From: a virus
Virus record (IMG/VR): IMGVR_UViG_3300031758_000004
Coordinates: 62,001 to 126,000 of that record
Reading direction: 5' to 3' (one strand)
DNA length: 64,000 bases
Positions 4,431-47,357 of this stretch are shown here, one piece after another. A program made the position numbers and the translations under genes. Every line of letters begins with the position of its first letter. The stretch's first letter is position 1. Under the pieces are notes generated by a model. It saw only the letters and a program-made list of their open reading frames with translations. It did no database searches and had not been told where the DNA came from.

Positions 4431-7400
4431 ATGCAAGAATCAAGATACGGAAGAACAAATATAACAGATGAATATTTAAGGTATCCATTTAATGGACCAT
4501 TAAACTACAACTATAATTATAGTGGGACTTTTTCTAAATATTCAATAATTGATAAATATTATGTAGATTCACTAGTTAAAAATACTAAAAGATTGATAAG
4601 TGGTGGGGCTGAGTGGTCATCTGGTATGACTTTTAGTTTAACTGATATATGGTATTCTTTTTCTGGTGAAATACTATCATACTCTGCTAGTTATCCCGGA
4701 TTAACAATTAGTAATGGTGATTCATCATATCCTAGAATTGACTCAATAGTAATTACAGAGGATAGAACAATTAGAGTTAAAAGAGGTGTTCCCTCAGCAA
4801 CTCCAGTTAAAACCCCTCTAAATGAAGATGAGATTTTAATACAATACGCTTATATACCAGCATCTGCTACAACTATTGGAAGTAAAGTTCCTGTTTATTT
4901 AACAGATGCTCAATGGCAATCAAGCTCTTATTTAGTTTCTGGTACTTATTCTGGTACAGTAAGTTTTACGAGTACTGATAATCCTTTCGATGGTGGTGGT
5001 GACTTTTGTGTCGATGTTACATCTGATTATAGAACAGGTGTTAGGTTTACAAAAGCAATTGGAACTATACCACTTTCAACATACGGTTCTTTGAGTTTAA
5101 GAGTTAGATTTTCTGAAAGAGTACCTGGTAATAGATCATTAGTTGCTCAAATACAAGGTACATCTTCTCAATTTACTGGAACTGCATCTAGTAGTGTTAT
5201 TAACTTAATGTCATACGGTGTTGATAGAGATGTTATTAATCAATGGCAACATATTGTTGTTCCTATGTCTAAGTTTGGTTCGGTAATTACCAATGCTAAA
5301 AATATATCATTTAGATTAATTGGTGGTTCACCAAATTCAAATCATAATTGGAAATTAGACAATATTTACTTTCAAAGTGGAGCGCCTTATGATGAATATA
5401 TGGGAGAACCTGATCCTTCTTCAACTGGTGGTTCATTTTCTTATATAGTTCAACAAAGTAATGAATGGTTAAAATCTGTTTTTGGTAGAACAAATAGTGT
5501 GCCGAGTGGTCCAACTGCTGGTGATAGATATTTAATTATACCAACTGCTAATGATATATTTACCGGAATGGAAGATCAAATTGCCGAATTTGATGGATTA
5601 GCAGCAACTTGGTCTTTTACTATACCAACTAATGGAACATCAATAAGAGTTGATAATGAAGACAACTCTATTTATAGATATGAAGGTGATTATAATACTG
5701 GTTCTTGGATTAAAGAATTATTAGCTCAAATAAGATATTTAGATGCTACTACATCAAATGCTGGTTTAAGCTATTCAGCAACATCTACACCTTTATTTGA
5801 CGCATATAACAAAGAAATGATTTATCTTATTTCTTTTGGTGCAACTAATTCAATTGGAACGGCTTCTTTATCAGTTAACAATTTAGAACACGTTACACTT
5901 AAAAAAATTGCTGCTACTTCTGGTGTTGTAAATCTTGAGCCTAACGATTTAAAAGTTGGTGGTGTTTATAGTGTTAGTTATGATGGTACTTATTTCCAAG
6001 TTAATTTAGGTGGTGGTGGTGTAGGTAGTTTTATCGAAAATCCAGGTGATTATAGAATTTTAACAGCTACTGGTACATCTAATAATCAAGCAATAGCAAA
6101 CTCAAACTTAACTTTTGATGGTACTACATTGGGTATAACTGGGTCTAATATATCTGGTAATTTAATATATGCTTCAGCATCATCAACTGACACACTAATT
6201 AATATAACTCAAAATGGATCAGGTGATTCATTAATAGTTAATTCAAATAACTCAACATTTGTAATTGATTCAAATGGAAATGTTGGTGTTGGTACTCAAT
6301 CAACAAATAACAAATTAGAAATATTTGGAACCGTTTCGACTTTTGGATTTCAATTAAAAAACGGTGGTACTGAAGGATACTTCTTAGTATCAGATTCTAA
6401 TGGAATTGGTACATGGACGGCATCTTTCCCAGGAGCTACGGGAGCTACCGGGTCATCCGGAACATCTGGAACATCAGGTACAAGTGGTGAACAAGGTACA
6501 TCAGGTACAAGTGGTGGTGGATCTGCTGGTACATCAGGTACTTCAGCCTTAGGATCATCTGGAACATCAGGTACAACTGGTGCTCCCGGAGAGACTTTAA
6601 GTCCTCAAGGTGTCGAGGCTTCATATTCGTCATTAACTCAAAGTGTTGGTACTGTAAATACAATACCAACACCTGGATTTCTAGATACTTACATTGTACA
6701 AGATACTGCTAGTTTATGGATTTATGATCCAACTTCAACAGCGGCTAACTCAGAAGGTTGGGTTGATATGGGTTCAATTCAAGGTCCAGCTGGTTTAGAT
6801 GGATCTGCTGGAACTTCAGGTACAAGTGGTAGTCAGGGTACATCTGGAACATCAGGTTCTAATGGAACATCTGGAACATCCGGAACTCAAGGTACATCCG
6901 GTACAAGTGGTGAGAATGGAACAAGTGGAACTTCTGGTTTACATGGATCTACTGGTACATCTGGAACTCAAGGAACATCTGGAACTCAAGGAACATCTGG
7001 AACTCAAGGAACAAGTGGGACTCAAGGAACATCCGGAACATCTGGTTTAAACGGATCTGCTGGAACACAAGGAACATCTGGAACAAAAGGAACAAGTGGA
7101 ACAAGAGGTTCATCAGGAACAAGTGGATCATCTGGGTCACAAGGTAATTCAGCTGGTATTCAATATAACTATGCTACTAGCACCACAAACTCAAATCCAG
7201 GCGTAACCAATTTGAGACTTTTGAGTAACTCACTACCAACAGTTGGAACTATATTAATAAGTATTATTGATTTAAATTCAATAGATGAGTCTGCTTGGTT
7301 ATCTTCTATGACAACTGGTTATTTAACTATTAGAGGTAACTCAAATGATTCTACAAATTCAGCGGTTTTTTATATATCAAATGTTTCTTTACAGACTAGT

Positions 7401-18996: not shown

Positions 18997-19019
18997 CATT
19001 ATTTAATATATAAATAATG
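18997..19019 (+). promoter_or_regulatory. Perfect inverted repeat over a start codon, with promoter-like core
   Basis: CATTATTTA / TAAATAATG, 9-bp perfect arms around the loop ATATA. The right arm ends in the ATG of the gene at 19017, and the promoter-like word TTTAATATATAA (19002-19013) spans the loop. In a long transcript the start codon would be paired; a transcript begun at the internal motif would lack the left arm. Confidence 0.7.
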
Positions 19020-19151
19020 AAAAAGTGTAAATGGTGTAATAAAGAATTGGTTGATAAAAGATCTGACTCTCTTTTTTGTAGAAGATCTTGTAAAGGAATG
19101 TTCAGTAGAAAGAAAAAAATAGAAAATGAAAAAAGAGATAGAAAAGTTTAA
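19017..19151 (+). CDS. 44-aa zinc-finger protein in front of an endonuclease gene
   Basis: The start codon lies in the right arm of the inverted repeat. The product has a four-Cys pattern CKWC-x13-CRRSC (C-x2-C-x13-C-x3-C) followed by a strongly basic tail (MFSRKKKIENEKRDRK), which fits a small zinc-binding, nucleic-acid-binding module. A similar motif occurs in the 73-residue protein at 29038-29259. It overlaps the start of the endonuclease gene at 19126 by 26 bases in another frame, so the two may be translationally coupled, or may once have been one gene joined by frameshift. Confidence 0.6.
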   Translation: MKKCKWCNKELVDKRSDSLFCRRSCKGMFSRKKKIENEKRDRKV

Positions 19152-23127: not shown

Positions 23128-23387
23128 TTTAAAAGTTTTATGAGTTTACTATCTCTTATTTCTTCTACTTTTGTGAAGAAACTTTTATCTATACAAAATT
23201 TATCAGCATGGATTTTAGAAGGGTTTTCAAATATCAGAAGTTTTTCTTCACCATCTTCAAAAGTATCCAAAACCATTAATTTTTGATTTCTATCAATACC
23301 AAATGACTCTAAAAGATTTTGACTGTCCTTTTTGAAAAGACGGTCAAAACCAGTACAGATAACTATATCACCAATATTAAAATCCAT
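23124..23387 (-). CDS. Hypothetical small protein, 87 aa
   Basis: A short beta-rich protein (GDIVICTGFDRLF, KLMVLDTFEDGEEKLLIF) that could adopt an SH3-like barrel, with a basic end (SKLIKLLK). It is wedged between the sigma factor and the nucleotidyltransferase, overlapping the first by one base and the second by four, so all three are one operon. No family was recognised. Confidence 0.65.
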   Translation of the reverse strand: MDFNIGDIVICTGFDRLFKKDSQNLLESFGIDRNQKLMVLDTFEDGEEKLLIFENPSKIHADKFCIDKSFFTKVEEIRDSKLIKLLK

Positions 23388-24073
23388 TATTTAACTGTAT
23401 CAATACAATTTCTCCATCTACGACCTTCATAAACTTCATCAATTTTCTTAAAGTCGTTTTTAGTTTCACCAATAAGAATTGACCTACCATTTCTTATTTG
23501 TGATTTGATTGTACTTAGGTTTTTACCTAATTGATCAGAGATTTCTTTGTAAGACATTTTTCTAATCTCTCTCATTTCAATGACTGTTTTATATGGTTCT
23601 TTTAATTTAGATATTTGTTCTATCATAATAGAAGCCTTAATATCATTAGACTCATATAATTCTAAATTAGTTTGATAATCTTCAGGTATAAAATCTTTCA
23701 TTGTTGTACCTTCATCATCATACTCTGTATCAAGAGATACATTTCTTTTATCATTTTTGATTGCTTGAAGAGCAAGATTTTTAGCTATAGTGAATAGCCA
23801 AGTTGAAAATTGAGCTTTTTCATCATCATACTTATCAATCTTTTCAAAAGCTGTTAAGAACGAATCTGTTGCTATGTCTTCTGTTTTTTGAGGATCATTA
23901 CACATTTTAGAAGTGTAATAAATTAATTTTGGATAATACTTTTTGTAAAGAGTTGAAAAATCTTTACCTGTTTTTTCTACGAAAAACTTTTCTTGTTCTG
24001 AGAATAAAATGTTTTCTTTCATAATTGCCGTTAAAATTTTATTGACTGCCGTCATTGCCTTATATTTATTCAT
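23387..24073 (-). CDS. ECF-like sigma-70 family RNA polymerase sigma factor
   Basis: A 228-residue protein with both sigma domains. Region 2 is LYKKYYPKLIYYTSKMC, TEDIATDSFLTAFEKIDKYD and QFSTWLFTIAKNLA (residues about 38-105), the helix that binds core polymerase and the -10 element. Region 4 is EPYKTVIEMREIRKMSYKEIS with a following helix LGKNLSTIKSQIRNGR, the -35 reader. The N-terminus carries about 30 extra residues. It would redirect host RNA polymerase to phage promoters; the motif TTTAATATATAC found across this window is a candidate target. A GAGGGG stretch lies about 12 bases before the ATG. It is expressed with two downstream genes. Confidence 0.93.
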   Translation of the reverse strand: MNKYKAMTAVNKILTAIMKENILFSEQEKFFVEKTGKDFSTLYKKYYPKLIYYTSKMCNDPQKTEDIATDSFLTAFEKIDKYDDEKAQFSTWLFTIAKNLALQAIKNDKRNVSLDTEYDDEGTTMKDFIPEDYQTNLELYESNDIKASIMIEQISKLKEPYKTVIEMREIRKMSYKEISDQLGKNLSTIKSQIRNGRSILIGETKNDFKKIDEVYEGRRWRNCIDTVK

Positions 24074-24160
24074 AACTTAATCCCCTCTATGAGAAGACCA
24101 AGTAATATTATACTTATTTATTTATAAAAAGTTTACTACTTTTATAAATTTTTTTGTATA

Positions 24161-25782: not shown

Positions 25783-26283
25783 CTAATTATCAAAAAAGAA
25801 ACAACATCTAACAAAAGATGGATTTGTATCCAACTTACTCATTTTATCCAAAGTGGATTTAAAATTTGGAAAATCAGTCCAATCATACTCTAATAACTCT
25901 TTTAAAGTAAAGTATGAGTGTGAGTGACCGTCACCATTCCATTGTTCACACATATACTTATATCCAAAAGAAGCATCTTTTGGAATTCCTCTTGGATCTG
26001 AGATAGCATTATATTCTCCGTAACCTCTAACATCAGCTAATATTGAAAATAAAGAGTAGTTTCTACCAGAATAAAAACGTTCTTCATATAAGGTGTTCCA
26101 ATACTCATTAAATCCATCAGTTTCTATCTCCCAACTATCAGCAGATACCCATCTAAAATGAGATGGACTTTCATCTAAAATCTGATTTAATCTCAAATCT
26201 CTTTCTTCTGAAAGATCTCTTGGACCTTCATAATCATTAGAATCTGTCCACCTCTCTACAAAAAAATGACAATCACACCCCAC
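25783..26283 (-). CDS. Conserved phage protein, MGCD family, 166 aa
   Basis: It opens MGCDCHFFVERW and later has the linked motifs SWEIETDG, RFYSGRNYSLFSILADVRG, ISDPRGIP and GDGHSHSYFTLKELLEYDW. This series is a familiar conserved protein of many unrelated phages (usually starting MGCDIH), whose function is not known. The invariant-looking Cys, His, Asp and Arg positions suggest a metal-binding or catalytic site; the usual Ile at position 5 is Cys here. The protein is full length. Its start lies one base from the stop of the LAGLIDADG endonuclease. Confidence 0.8.
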   Translation of the reverse strand: MGCDCHFFVERWTDSNDYEGPRDLSEERDLRLNQILDESPSHFRWVSADSWEIETDGFNEYWNTLYEERFYSGRNYSLFSILADVRGYGEYNAISDPRGIPKDASFGYKYMCEQWNGDGHSHSYFTLKELLEYDWTDFPNFKSTLDKMSKLDTNPSFVRCCFFFDN

Positions 26284-26284
26284 A

Positions 26285-27076
26285 TTATTTATTTTTATAG
26301 TAATTTAACATATCTTGATATTTTTCATATTTTCTATCTAAATGAGTGGTTGTTTCATCATACAACCAATCTAAAACCTTAATTATTTGTCTATTACCTC
26401 TTAGATAAACTGAATATATCGACTTCATTTTTCTTAATTTAATATTAACATTATTTTTAGAAAGTATTAATTGTAAAGTCTTCATCAAATCATAAGAACC
26501 AACAATGGAAAAAGTATATCTTCTATAATTTTTATCCATTGAGTAAGTCAAACAACCATCACCATCAAAAATACCTTTTATAAAAAATCTATCAAATTCC
26601 GAATCTATATTTGGATAAGTAACAATTTTGCTTTTTCTCTTAACTAATCCTAAACAATCAACATCAGATAATAACTTTTTATCTTGTATTGTTAGATAAA
26701 AAATATCTTTACCGTTTATTATATTTTTCTTTTTTCTAACCGGCATATCACAATTTACATAAATTTTATCTCTCAATTTTTCCAAATGTCCCTCATCTTG
26801 TATATCCACTCTAATAAACTTACCACTATTATAACCATCAGCCATCAAAAAACCCAACCAATAAGCTTTATCTTCCGAATCTATTACTTCAAAATAATCT
26901 TTGTTTATCAAATATTTTCTATGAGTCTTTTTAACCTCAATATTATTAACTTTTAACCTGTTTGTTATAGTAGCGACATCAACATTAAAAAGTCTTCCTA
27001 TTTTACTAGCACTAAAATTCTCTTCGGTATAAAGTCTAATAATCTCTTTTTCATCAATTTGTTTTTTCTTTCCCAT
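26285..27076 (-). CDS. LAGLIDADG homing endonuclease with N-terminal HTH
   Basis: A 263-residue single-chain enzyme. Residues 8-45 form a helix-turn-helix (IIRLYTEENFSASKIGRLF then VATITNRLK). Two LAGLIDADG motifs follow: YWLGFLMADGY at 72-82 and FIKGIFDGDGC at 165-175, each with the catalytic acidic residue. These enzymes cut an unoccupied allele to spread their own gene. It sits between the DNA ligase and the MGCD gene on the same strand, with no interrupted gene visible around it. Its start codon is enclosed in a perfect inverted repeat (27072-27098). Confidence 0.92.
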   Translation of the reverse strand: MGKKKQIDEKEIIRLYTEENFSASKIGRLFNVDVATITNRLKVNNIEVKKTHRKYLINKDYFEVIDSEDKAYWLGFLMADGYNSGKFIRVDIQDEGHLEKLRDKIYVNCDMPVRKKKNIINGKDIFYLTIQDKKLLSDVDCLGLVKRKSKIVTYPNIDSEFDRFFIKGIFDGDGCLTYSMDKNYRRYTFSIVGSYDLMKTLQLILSKNNVNIKLRKMKSIYSVYLRGNRQIIKVLDWLYDETTTHLDRKYEKYQDMLNYYKNK

Positions 27077-27098
27077 ATCTTATATATTAAGATATGGG
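27072..27098 (-). promoter_or_regulatory. Perfect 11-bp hairpin enclosing the endonuclease start codon
   Basis: CCCATATCTTA / TAAGATATGGG, perfect arms around a 5-base TATAT loop. Read on the minus strand, the second arm contains the ATG (27076-27074) and the promoter-like word TTAATATATAAG covers the end of the first arm and the loop. Long read-through messages would fold over the start; a message begun at the internal motif would not. Confidence 0.8.
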
Positions 27099-27144
27099 TT
27101 GTTCATTTCACCTTACCTTAGAATTATCTATTTGATACTATCTA

Positions 27145-29013
27145 TTATTTTAATAGATCCTCTAATTGTTCAACAGTAATAACTTCTACTCCCAAATCAA
27201 GAGCCTTTTTCTCTTTAGAAGAACCAGAACCAATCGCTTTCATAACTAAGTGTGTTGTGTTTTTACTAACACTACCACCAATTTTACCACCACGAGATTC
27301 AATAACCTCTTCTAATTCTTTTCGACGAACTCCTGTGAATACAAACTGCTTACCTTCTAAGTCATTAGAAACTTGTACTACTTCAACTTTCTCAGAAATA
27401 GTAACTGGTAAATCAGAAATAAACTCGAAGAACTTATCATAATTATCAACATAAGTTTTAGCAGAAATCTCAGCAAATCCTTCAATTTCCATAACTTTTC
27501 CAACAGTAGGTTTTTCATTGAAGTGTTCTAACAGAGCTAACTTTTTACTTCCTAATCCAGAGAAGATGCCAGTAGCGTGTTGTAATTTAGATAATTGAAC
27601 ACCAGTGATAGACTTTTGAATTGAGTCATAAACAATTTTAGCTTTACGTTTACCAAAACGATCAATCTTTTCTAAGTTTTCTACTTTAAGATTTAAAATA
27701 TCTTTAATAGTTTTATAACCAGCATCCCACAATTGTGTGATAACACCTTCTGAAACATTATCAGCTTCTAATATCTCAAAGAAAGCGATATTCTTTTTTA
27801 ATTTTTGCTCTTCTGTTTCAGTTAATGTGATTAACTCAATACCAGCCTCATTCCAATCAATCTCAACACCTTCGATAGTTGGTAAAACAAATTCAACTGT
27901 TTCTAATACGTCAGCAATAATTGGAATAACCATACCACTACGTTTAACAACAACTTTAGCACCAACTCCCAATCCCATATCTTTTACGAAACGAGCGTTA
28001 TTACCAGTTACATTAGATACAGTAACTCCGTCTAATTTAACAGGTTTGATATGTAATACCGGTTTTAATAAACCTTGTTTAGAAATATTCCAAGTAATAC
28101 CAATTACTTCTGTTTCAGCTGATTGCTCGAAACTTGGGTGTTTGAATGCTCTTGCGAATACTGGGTTACCTGATGAAGTTTCACGACCTAATGATGATTG
28201 TGTTGCTAAGTTATTTACCTCTAAGATAATACCATCAATCTCATATTCTTCAGACCATTCTTTAAATAAAGAGATAAGTAATTCTTCTGTTAAATCTAAA
28301 ATGCCACAAACATGATAAGGTACTTTTACTTTTTGATTCTCATTTAATTCATCTAATATTTGTTGTTTAGTGGTGAAATGATTTCTGAATTTTGATGATG
28401 GAATAGCACCATATTTAATAAAGTTACAATCTTTTAAAGCTTCTCTCGCATCTGGTGAGTTGATAAGACCAGCCACGAAGTTTCTTGGGTTAGCATAATC
28501 ATTTGAGTATTTATCGATAAATACTCGTTTAGGCATAATAACTTCACCATAACTATGTGAGAAAGTAATAGGTGCGAAAGGATCTATATCATTTTCAATG
28601 TCATATAACTTGTTTCCTATAAGTTTATAGTGTTCATTTGATTTTTGACCATAAACACCATCTCCACGAGTGATAGCATCACCGTTGTTTTCTTCATCTT
28701 TACATAAAGAAAGACCATCATATTTAGGTGTACAGATAATTTCAACAGAGTTTGGGATAAGTTTAAGACGTTGCCAGTCTTTAATTTCTTCTAAAGACTT
28801 AATTTTGTTCATAGAAGCCATTGGAATAGGTAGACGAGTTTTTCTCGTTTCGTCAAGAATTTCATGTCCTACAACAGATAACAATTCATCATCTGGTGAC
28901 ATATCAGATAACTCTTCTACAAGAATATCATATTCTTTATCAGACATAATTGGTTTTCCAATTCTATATGCCTCGTTTGCTTCTTTAATCTTATTCTTTA
29001 ATTGTTCTATCAT
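27145..29013 (-). CDS. ligA: NAD-dependent DNA ligase
   Basis: A 622-residue NAD-dependent ligase. Visible parts: the Ia-like N-terminal (SDKEYDILVEEL), adenylation domain with nucleophilic Lys97 in CTPKYDGLSL, the ITRGDGVYGQ and YANPRNFVAG motifs, EIDGIILEVN, the OB domain (SKQGLLKPVLHIKPVKL, GAKVVVKRSGMVIPII), helix-hairpin-helix repeats (NLEKIDRFGKRKA, FSGLGSKKLA) and a C-terminal BRCT domain (KQFVFTGVRRKELEEVIES). The four-Cys zinc finger normally found after the OB domain is absent; that stretch contains no Cys. It joins nicks in phage DNA replication. It is about 50 residues shorter than bacterial LigA, matching that loss. Confidence 0.96.
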   Translation of the reverse strand: MIEQLKNKIKEANEAYRIGKPIMSDKEYDILVEELSDMSPDDELLSVVGHEILDETRKTRLPIPMASMNKIKSLEEIKDWQRLKLIPNSVEIICTPKYDGLSLCKDEENNGDAITRGDGVYGQKSNEHYKLIGNKLYDIENDIDPFAPITFSHSYGEVIMPKRVFIDKYSNDYANPRNFVAGLINSPDAREALKDCNFIKYGAIPSSKFRNHFTTKQQILDELNENQKVKVPYHVCGILDLTEELLISLFKEWSEEYEIDGIILEVNNLATQSSLGRETSSGNPVFARAFKHPSFEQSAETEVIGITWNISKQGLLKPVLHIKPVKLDGVTVSNVTGNNARFVKDMGLGVGAKVVVKRSGMVIPIIADVLETVEFVLPTIEGVEIDWNEAGIELITLTETEEQKLKKNIAFFEILEADNVSEGVITQLWDAGYKTIKDILNLKVENLEKIDRFGKRKAKIVYDSIQKSITGVQLSKLQHATGIFSGLGSKKLALLEHFNEKPTVGKVMEIEGFAEISAKTYVDNYDKFFEFISDLPVTISEKVEVVQVSNDLEGKQFVFTGVRRKELEEVIESRGGKIGGSVSKNTTHLVMKAIGSGSSKEKKALDLGVEVITVEQLEDLLK

Positions 29014-29037
29014 AATACAAATATAATAAAATTATTA

Positions 29038-29259: not shown

Positions 29260-29301
29260 TCTACAAATATATGAAAAATTTTACATGAAAGAAAGCATTT
29301 T

Positions 29302-41241: not shown

Positions 41242-41252
41242 GTATATATTAA
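41242..41252 (-). promoter_or_regulatory. Putative phage promoter motif TTAATATATAC, minus strand
   Basis: The motif reads leftward and its last base lies 22 bases before the ATG at 41220. It overlaps a perfect 8-bp inverted repeat (41234-41241 TTCTTAAT and 41248-41255 ATTAAGAA). Confidence 0.62.
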
Positions 41253-46556: not shown

Positions 46557-47357
46557 TTAAGAATTTATTATTTTTTCAAAATCAGTATAGTCCTTATCTA
46601 TAATGAAAATAAAGTTATAACCATTCTCTATTGTGTATTTCATTTTTGCTATATTTTCATCATAATCACAATAAGTATAAGTTGACTTTACTTCAACAAT
46701 TAGATTAATATCTCTTATTAAGAAATCCGAATAATAAACTCTTTCTTTTTCACACAATTTATATTTTATAGTTGGACCATTTTCTATATTAATTTCATTT
46801 TTTATACAATATTCTATAAAATCTAATTCATACGTTCCTTTATAATATAATTCAGTTTCTTTATATTTTATAGTTCTATATGAGTTTTTCTGAGCTTTAT
46901 TAAAAATTTTTTCATTTTTCATAGGGTGATCTACACCATACTTCTCTATAAAAATATTTTTAATTTTATCTTTTATCTTTTTTGATTTTAAAACACAATC
47001 AACACCATATTTTTCCATACAAGTTTTTTTAATTTTATTTTTAACTTGATCTAAAATTTGAATATTATCTACCCCATAATTTTTCATAAAGATGATTTTT
47101 GTCTTATTAAAATGACATTTATGACATGAATATATTTTCTCTTCCGCTTTATTCATTTGTAATATATAATTTGACCAAGTTACATCATTTATTACTCCAC
47201 AATATTCACATTCACATTTTACTTTTGTTCTATTAGAATCATTCATATCCTCTGGTAAAACCATAAAATAACCATTATCTTCAATATATCCCTTTTCAAG
47301 GAAATATTTTTTAGTTCTATTGGAAACTTTAACTTTTATAAATTTATTTAATAACAT
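46557..47357 (-). CDS. Putative PD-(D/E)XK homing endonuclease
   Basis: A 266-residue protein. It has an N-terminal zinc module (KCECEYCG, YSCHKCHF), then three copies of a roughly 30-residue unit containing EKYGVD or NYGVD with KIKxx-type helices (about 95-160), known from phage homing enzymes as DNA-binding repeats. The C-terminal part has YYSDFLIRDINLIVEVKST, a D...ExK nuclease core. It is antisense to its neighbours, between primase and the RHH/M16 operon. The start codon lies in the loop of an 8-bp AT-only inverted repeat (47337-47344 and 47358-47365), with TTTTTATATATAAA upstream (47373-47360). Confidence 0.75.
   Translation of the reverse strand: MLLNKFIKVKVSNRTKKYFLEKGYIEDNGYFMVLPEDMNDSNRTKVKCECEYCGVINDVTWSNYILQMNKAEEKIYSCHKCHFNKTKIIFMKNYGVDNIQILDQVKNKIKKTCMEKYGVDCVLKSKKIKDKIKNIFIEKYGVDHPMKNEKIFNKAQKNSYRTIKYKETELYYKGTYELDFIEYCIKNEINIENGPTIKYKLCEKERVYYSDFLIRDINLIVEVKSTYTYCDYDENIAKMKYTIENGYNFIFIIDKDYTDFEKIINS

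Follow-up and report, generated by a model that had tools for sequence, protein, structure and literature searches.

The endonuclease gene and its neighbors

The window, a 64,000-nucleotide stretch of the viral record IMGVR_UViG_3300031758_000004, carries a compact cluster of co-directional genes in which a LAGLIDADG homing-endonuclease gene sits behind the gene for an NAD-dependent DNA ligase (Table 1). The record containing the window, here called G000, has 191,442 bases and 193 predicted ATG starts.

Table 1. Features of the endonuclease locus and its surroundings, in window coordinates
Feature	Position	Strand	Basis or remark
Phage sigma-70-family factor gene	23387..24073	minus	same cluster; candidate reader of TTAATATATA, putative role
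Downstream gene, phrog_10141	25783-26283	minus	function unknown; 1 nt past the endonuclease stop
Free-standing LAGLIDADG homing-endonuclease gene, 263 aa, two motifs, N-terminal helix-turn-helix	26285..27076	minus	Pfam, phrog, motifs, structure model
Perfect inverted repeat, 11-5-11	27072..27098	minus	exact sequence match and fold
Endonuclease start codon ATG	27076-27074	minus	within the 3' arm
68-nt leader, ligase gene to endonuclease gene	27077..27144	minus	
Short upstream ORF, MNNPYLNI-stop	27080..27106	minus	in frame, with its end 3 nt short of the ATG; likely fortuitous
Phage promoter motif TTAATATATA	27081..27090	minus	4 nt ahead of the ATG; genome-wide motif, conserved in relatives
NAD-dependent DNA ligase gene	27145..29013	minus	upstream, co-directional; presumed source of read-through RNA
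Host-type (-7-like) promoter motif TATATTTG	29018..29025	minus	4 nt before the ligase ATG; putative role

The endonuclease protein matches the Pfam family LAGLIDADG_3 above the cut-off and also phrog_4645, and its two motifs read WLGFLMADG and IKGIFDGDG. In 37 sequences, D80 and D171 are invariant and D173 is nearly so. The structure model (pLDDT 92.7) folds into an N-terminal helix-turn-helix followed by the LAGLIDADG fold, and its top matches among solved structures are LAGLIDADG enzymes, with the best match in the PDB being I-Tsp061I. Both the motif with its acidic residues and the fold place the protein among the LAGLIDADG homing endonucleases.

The Rfam search of the locus yielded no match at gathering score, neither to an intron such as a group I intron core nor to a known RNA element. 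Since the endonuclease gene lies between a complete ligase gene and an intact downstream gene, it is free-standing. The GTG of the phrog_10141 gene aligns without gaps with the ATG of its orthologue in LR756502, and the idea that the endonuclease gene had inserted at the beginning of this gene was rejected on these grounds. A homing site in the ligase gene was rejected as well, because the shared sequence AAGATATGGGA (11 nt) is unremarkable among the starts of this genome.

In LR745206 (634,780 bases), LR756502 (642,428 bases), and 16 IMG/VR relatives, the ligase gene is followed by other genes and by no such endonuclease, these 18 relatives being too distant to define the empty site. For the Mahaphage clade, the phages with genomes of 634 and 642 kb are predicted to infect Bacteroidetes (PMC7162821), and we infer that the phage of the window shares this predicted host. 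In another record (L039, near positions 5830 to 5880), the ligase gene's end forms an inverted repeat with the sequence following it (AGAAAAGGTATAATTATACCTTTTCT), perhaps a terminator common to two convergent genes.

A perfect inverted repeat holds the start codon

The start of the endonuclease gene is part of an inverted repeat whose arms, CCCATATCTTA and TAAGATATGGG, enclose the loop TATAT with zero mismatches over 27072-27098. Read on the coding (minus) strand, the 5' arm occupies 27098-27088, the loop ATATA 27087-27083, and the 3' arm 27082-27072. An earlier note, made from the sequence, had described perfect 11-bp arms around a 5-base loop with the ATG of the LAGLIDADG gene in the second arm, and this description is exact, including its coordinates.

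The RNA from 27100 to 27070 has a folding energy of -14.6 kcal/mol (z of -5.3), which was equalled by none of 200 shuffles, and the hairpin persists when a longer leader is folded. The structure prediction gives the AUG a pairing probability of 1.00, so that the translation start would be sequestered on upstream transcripts. This is the sole perfect repeat with arms of at least 9 bp that holds a gene's ATG in the 191-kb record with its 193 ATG starts, and by the cost of freeing the start codon, the endonuclease start ranks second among the 193. Two further contigs carry the identical sequence, and the locus shows no variants. The same hairpin was not found at this site in relatives.

A stable hairpin between two genes could also be a terminator or a processing site for the ligase transcript. 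However, no T-tract follows the repeat on either strand, which makes a terminator unlikely, whereas other long repeats of the genome form A-tract/T-tract hairpins, and the lack of an Rfam match at gathering score also counts against this role, which we consider extremely improbable. The record contains 15 repeats with arms of at least 11 bp and at least four G/C, many of which resemble T-tract terminators.

A genome-wide promoter motif lies within the hairpin

The motif TTAATATATA takes in three bases at the end of the 5' arm, runs through the loop, and extends two bases into the 3' arm, with TTAATATATAAG at 27090-27079 on the minus strand. The record contains 40 copies of TTAATATATA, 32 of which are located within 40 nt upstream of a gene start, a distance at which only 2.3% of random positions fall. 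These 32 copies are spaced either 4 to 6 nt or 17 to 25 nt from the start, with none between. In seven relatives, 297 sites are found at 3 to 7 nt, 45 at 9 to 15 nt, and 236 at 18 to 24 nt, compared to 9, 16, and 7 sites, respectively, for the reversed-pattern control, so the spacing to the ATG is bimodal, at about 4 and about 21 nt, in the record and in the seven relatives. With a single exception, the relatives examined have the motif 19 to 22 nt ahead of the same gene. The genes behind it include those for tail-fibre and virion proteins, and the spacing of 4 nt at the endonuclease gene is standard, the same motif serving virion genes. Judged by this distribution, TTAATATATA can be regarded as a real promoter motif. 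The resemblance to "the phage motif" pointed out in the earlier note is thus better founded than a reader of the sequence could know, as TTAATATATA is a genome-wide promoter-type element that overlaps arm and loop.

Six of the nine endonuclease-type genes of the record carry TTAATATATA (Fisher P = 6e-4). Endonuclease-type genes, mostly with their own TTAATATATA, are located at G000 13997, 26799, 29674 (minus), 54102 (minus), and 186863 (minus) and at window 19126 and 27076 (minus). In most of the other endonuclease genes of this genome, the promoter is present and such a hairpin is absent. At G000 175121, the 17-nt module TTAATATATAAGATATG shared with the endonuclease start stands at the start of another gene, where the complementary upstream arm is absent, indicating that the 5' arm is an addition. 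Among relatives of this phage, three of four homologous endonuclease genes have a TTAATATATA-like motif, with other hairpins or none.

The repeat might have arisen by chance beside a normal late promoter and have no effect beyond slightly lower translation. It is known from a single invariant locus in a genome of 28% G+C, simulated genomes contain about two perfect repeats with arms of at least 11 bp (2.05 per 191 kb), and the second-best promoter stem of the record is also 11 bp long and entirely A/T. However, the arm ends CCC/GGG contain G/C, and only 0.15 repeats of this length with at least four G/C are expected per simulated genome. Moreover, when the upstream DNA was randomised with promoter and start fixed, a 10-bp arm was reached in 0 of 3000 trials at this site, and 0.018 arms of at least 11 bp are expected over all 32 promoter sites together. 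A chance origin of this site is unlikely, and a repeat without further effect seems to us quite improbable. At G000 47192-47224 (window -14808), the promoter of a 540-aa gene is itself paired with the bases preceding the ATG, in an 11-bp hairpin made up of A/T only. A similar promoter-arm hairpin is found ahead of an endonuclease gene at L263 in a relative.

The ligase gene and the gene preceding it both have the motif TATATTTG 4 nt before the ATG. Copies are located at window 29018-29025 and 29264-29271 (minus). This motif is enriched just ahead of starts, with 12 of its 48 copies at most 40 nt away, and resembles the Bacteroidota -7 element, TAnnTTTG. It may be the host-type early promoter. 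The two motifs would then mark two promoter classes, an early host-type and a late phage-type.

Translation initiation without Shine-Dalgarno sequences

The endonuclease start has no Shine-Dalgarno sequence. Shine-Dalgarno cores are found at 2 of the 193 starts versus 7 in a control stretch; the phage makes no use of these sequences, and any lock must therefore act on the start codon and its surroundings. In the Bacteroidetes host Flavobacterium johnsoniae, mRNA structure is a determinant of initiation and tunes it (PMC6847099).

The short in-frame ORF ending just before the endonuclease ATG opens another explanation, in which translation of MNNPYLNI would melt the hairpin and the ribosome, having terminated 3 nt short of the AUG, would start again there, coupling the gene to translation of the read-through RNA. 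Translation of this ORF would open the hairpin and would count against a lock. However, one ATG is expected by chance per about 50 nt, the phage does not use Shine-Dalgarno sequences, and the related leaders described below have a start-stop, an unrelated upstream ORF, or none. The ORF was accordingly rejected as a conserved feature, and we regard such a switch as very improbable.

Homologous endonuclease leaders in other phages

In one clade of homologous endonuclease genes from IMG/VR (leaders L057, L088, L095, L115, L182, L256, and others), the element CACTAAnAGATATTTATTAGT directly precedes the ATG. A near-identical element is also found ahead of non-endonuclease genes in other phages, suggesting that CACTAAnAGATATTTATTAGT is probably a promoter. 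In most clade members, the first codons can pair with a complementary left block, and the resulting hairpin encloses both the CACTAAnAGATATTTATTAGT element and the AUG. Leader energies average -12.4 kcal/mol for the endonuclease genes versus -4.2 kcal/mol for the remaining genes that carry the element (P = 4e-7, with the sequences being related). As far as our paper search shows, these hairpin leaders have no earlier description.

The CACTAAnAGATATTTATTAGT leaders resemble the one in the window in that they precede members of the same protein family (about 31 to 36% identity to the window protein), hold the ATG in the 3' arm, and have a promoter-like element inside the hairpin. They differ in the promoter-like sequence and in the arms, and nothing in the comparison pointed to a shared descent of the leaders. 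Covariation by pair counts is not significant in the related leaders, RNAalifold finds no consensus structure over all 24, and a conserved structure demonstrated by covariation was therefore rejected. In only part of the set does a left arm match its own right arm better than it matches those of other leaders. One subgroup has lost the outer stem; in L155, L159, and L220, an upstream CAT now pairs with the ATG (CATACTAATA/TATTGGTATG), which is another way of keeping the AUG paired. Across all homologous endonuclease genes, start-codon hairpins are weakly enriched (P = 0.016), too weakly for a general enrichment to be upheld. That the layout recurs in other phages is supported; for the pairing, the results stop short of proving conservation.

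A start-codon hairpin with a probable internal promoter

We propose, with a probability of roughly 0.6, that the hairpin locks translation and that an internal late promoter, contained within it, acts as the transcriptional key. Read-through RNA from the ligase cluster would carry both arms, fold, and hide the AUG of the endonuclease, so that little enzyme would be made. Later, the phage promoter within the hairpin would initiate a second RNA at the AUG or immediately upstream of it, and this RNA would remain unfolded and be translated as a leaderless or nearly leaderless message. If TTAATATATA acts like a -10 element, the start would be at or adjoining the AUG; whatever the exact start, TTAATATATA covers the end of the 5' arm, so an RNA begun there would be without this arm and could not fold, and the hairpin would form on read-through RNA alone. 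Motif and geometry thus fit an internal promoter whose RNA is missing one arm. The proposed benefit, with silencing early and expression late in infection, is that premature cutting would be avoided.

The evidence for the promoter is strong, the remainder depends on structure prediction, and on this basis the lock is supported as the best reading. The earlier note had suggested a T4-like logic with a different promoter; the co-directional cluster, the host-type promoter motif of the ligase gene, TTAATATATA inside the hairpin, and the recurrence in homologues all speak for it at the level of sequence.

The main rival is a DNA operator, where a dimeric repressor, or the endonuclease itself through its helix-turn-helix, would bind the dyad and stop transcription, much as I-TevI acts on its own late promoter, with the RNA fold as a side effect or an additional layer. 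The promoter motif lies at the centre of the dyad, the endonuclease has an N-terminal helix-turn-helix, autorepression is established for I-TevI (PMC2988022), and one subgroup of the related leaders keeps its left block though the pairing partner has changed, as a DNA site would. On the other hand, an operator needs neither an ATG in the arm nor pairing with the first codons, and the element matches the neighboring ligase gene no better than would be usual. With two motifs, a LAGLIDADG enzyme should be monomeric and prefer an asymmetric site, which also counts against this explanation. An operator in place of a lock appears rather unlikely to us, and operator and RNA lock could act together.

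Extending the lock to the homologues, we tentatively consider a leaderless-message switch, in which, in phages whose hosts lack Shine-Dalgarno initiation, LAGLIDADG genes wrap a start-codon hairpin round the late promoter of their own phage. Each gene would be closed on read-through RNA and open on a message beginning at its own AUG. Such a switch would have arisen or been rebuilt repeatedly around unrelated promoters, which we see as possible rather than probable.

Comparison with known systems

For T4 I-TevI, segB, and Aeh1 mobE, an RNA structure before the homing gene forms on upstream transcripts only, the RNA from the internal late (or middle) promoter being too short to fold (PMC2988022). 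The T4 background given in the earlier note, homing genes silenced by a hairpin and expressed from an internal late promoter, was presented there as established knowledge. The intron homing endonucleases of T4 (I-TevI type) share with the window the hairpin on upstream transcripts and the internal promoter, but they are GIY-YIG/HNH enzymes inside group I introns with a hidden Shine-Dalgarno sequence, whereas the window has a free-standing LAGLIDADG gene, a paired AUG, another promoter, and no Shine-Dalgarno sequence. The genes segB of T4 and mobE of the Aeromonas phage Aeh1 likewise encode free-standing endonucleases and combine a sequestering hairpin with a late promoter next to it (PMC2988022), but they have a T4-like promoter, a Shine-Dalgarno sequence, other enzyme families, and another phage lineage. 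The I-TevI autorepression operator is also a symmetric or site-like sequence over the endonuclease's own promoter (PMC2988022); binding has been shown for I-TevI, whereas the dyad in the window is known from sequence alone. A hidden Shine-Dalgarno sequence is a defining part of the T4-type set and was tested and found absent here, so the window system is not a member of this set even though it would work alike.

Control by hairpin and late promoter was known before for GIY-YIG and HNH enzymes in T-even phages, via hiding of the Shine-Dalgarno sequence. If our reading is true, the T4-type layout is also found in a huge phage of a predicted Bacteroidetes-infecting lineage, with another enzyme family, another promoter, and the start codon as the target, which would point to a general need for timed silencing among phage homing genes.

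Other genes behind the promoter motif

The TTAATATATA rule, with two start spacings and hundreds of sites, offers a way to approach late transcription in huge phages that are uncultured. The two spacings suggest two classes of late messages, leaderless and short-leadered. Example sites are found at window 16383 and 29303 (plus) and at 41252 and 52032 (minus). Many proteins encoded behind the motif begin like MKYIKLFEAF (window 16398 and 41220 [minus]; G000 19410, 175107 [minus], and 187821), and these N-termini presumably resemble the capsid-targeting leader peptides of T4 internal head proteins. At window 19003-19150, a 44-aa zinc-ribbon-like ORF comes directly after the promoter and runs into the start of the HNH endonuclease gene (19126), and the two are perhaps a single gene split by a frameshift.

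The gene for the sigma-70-family factor, the candidate reader of the motif, is preceded by an 87-nt leader (window 24074-24160, minus). In some relatives (L027, L028, and L034), TTAATATATA is located 65 to 100 nt before a similar gene, which suggests that the factor controls itself.
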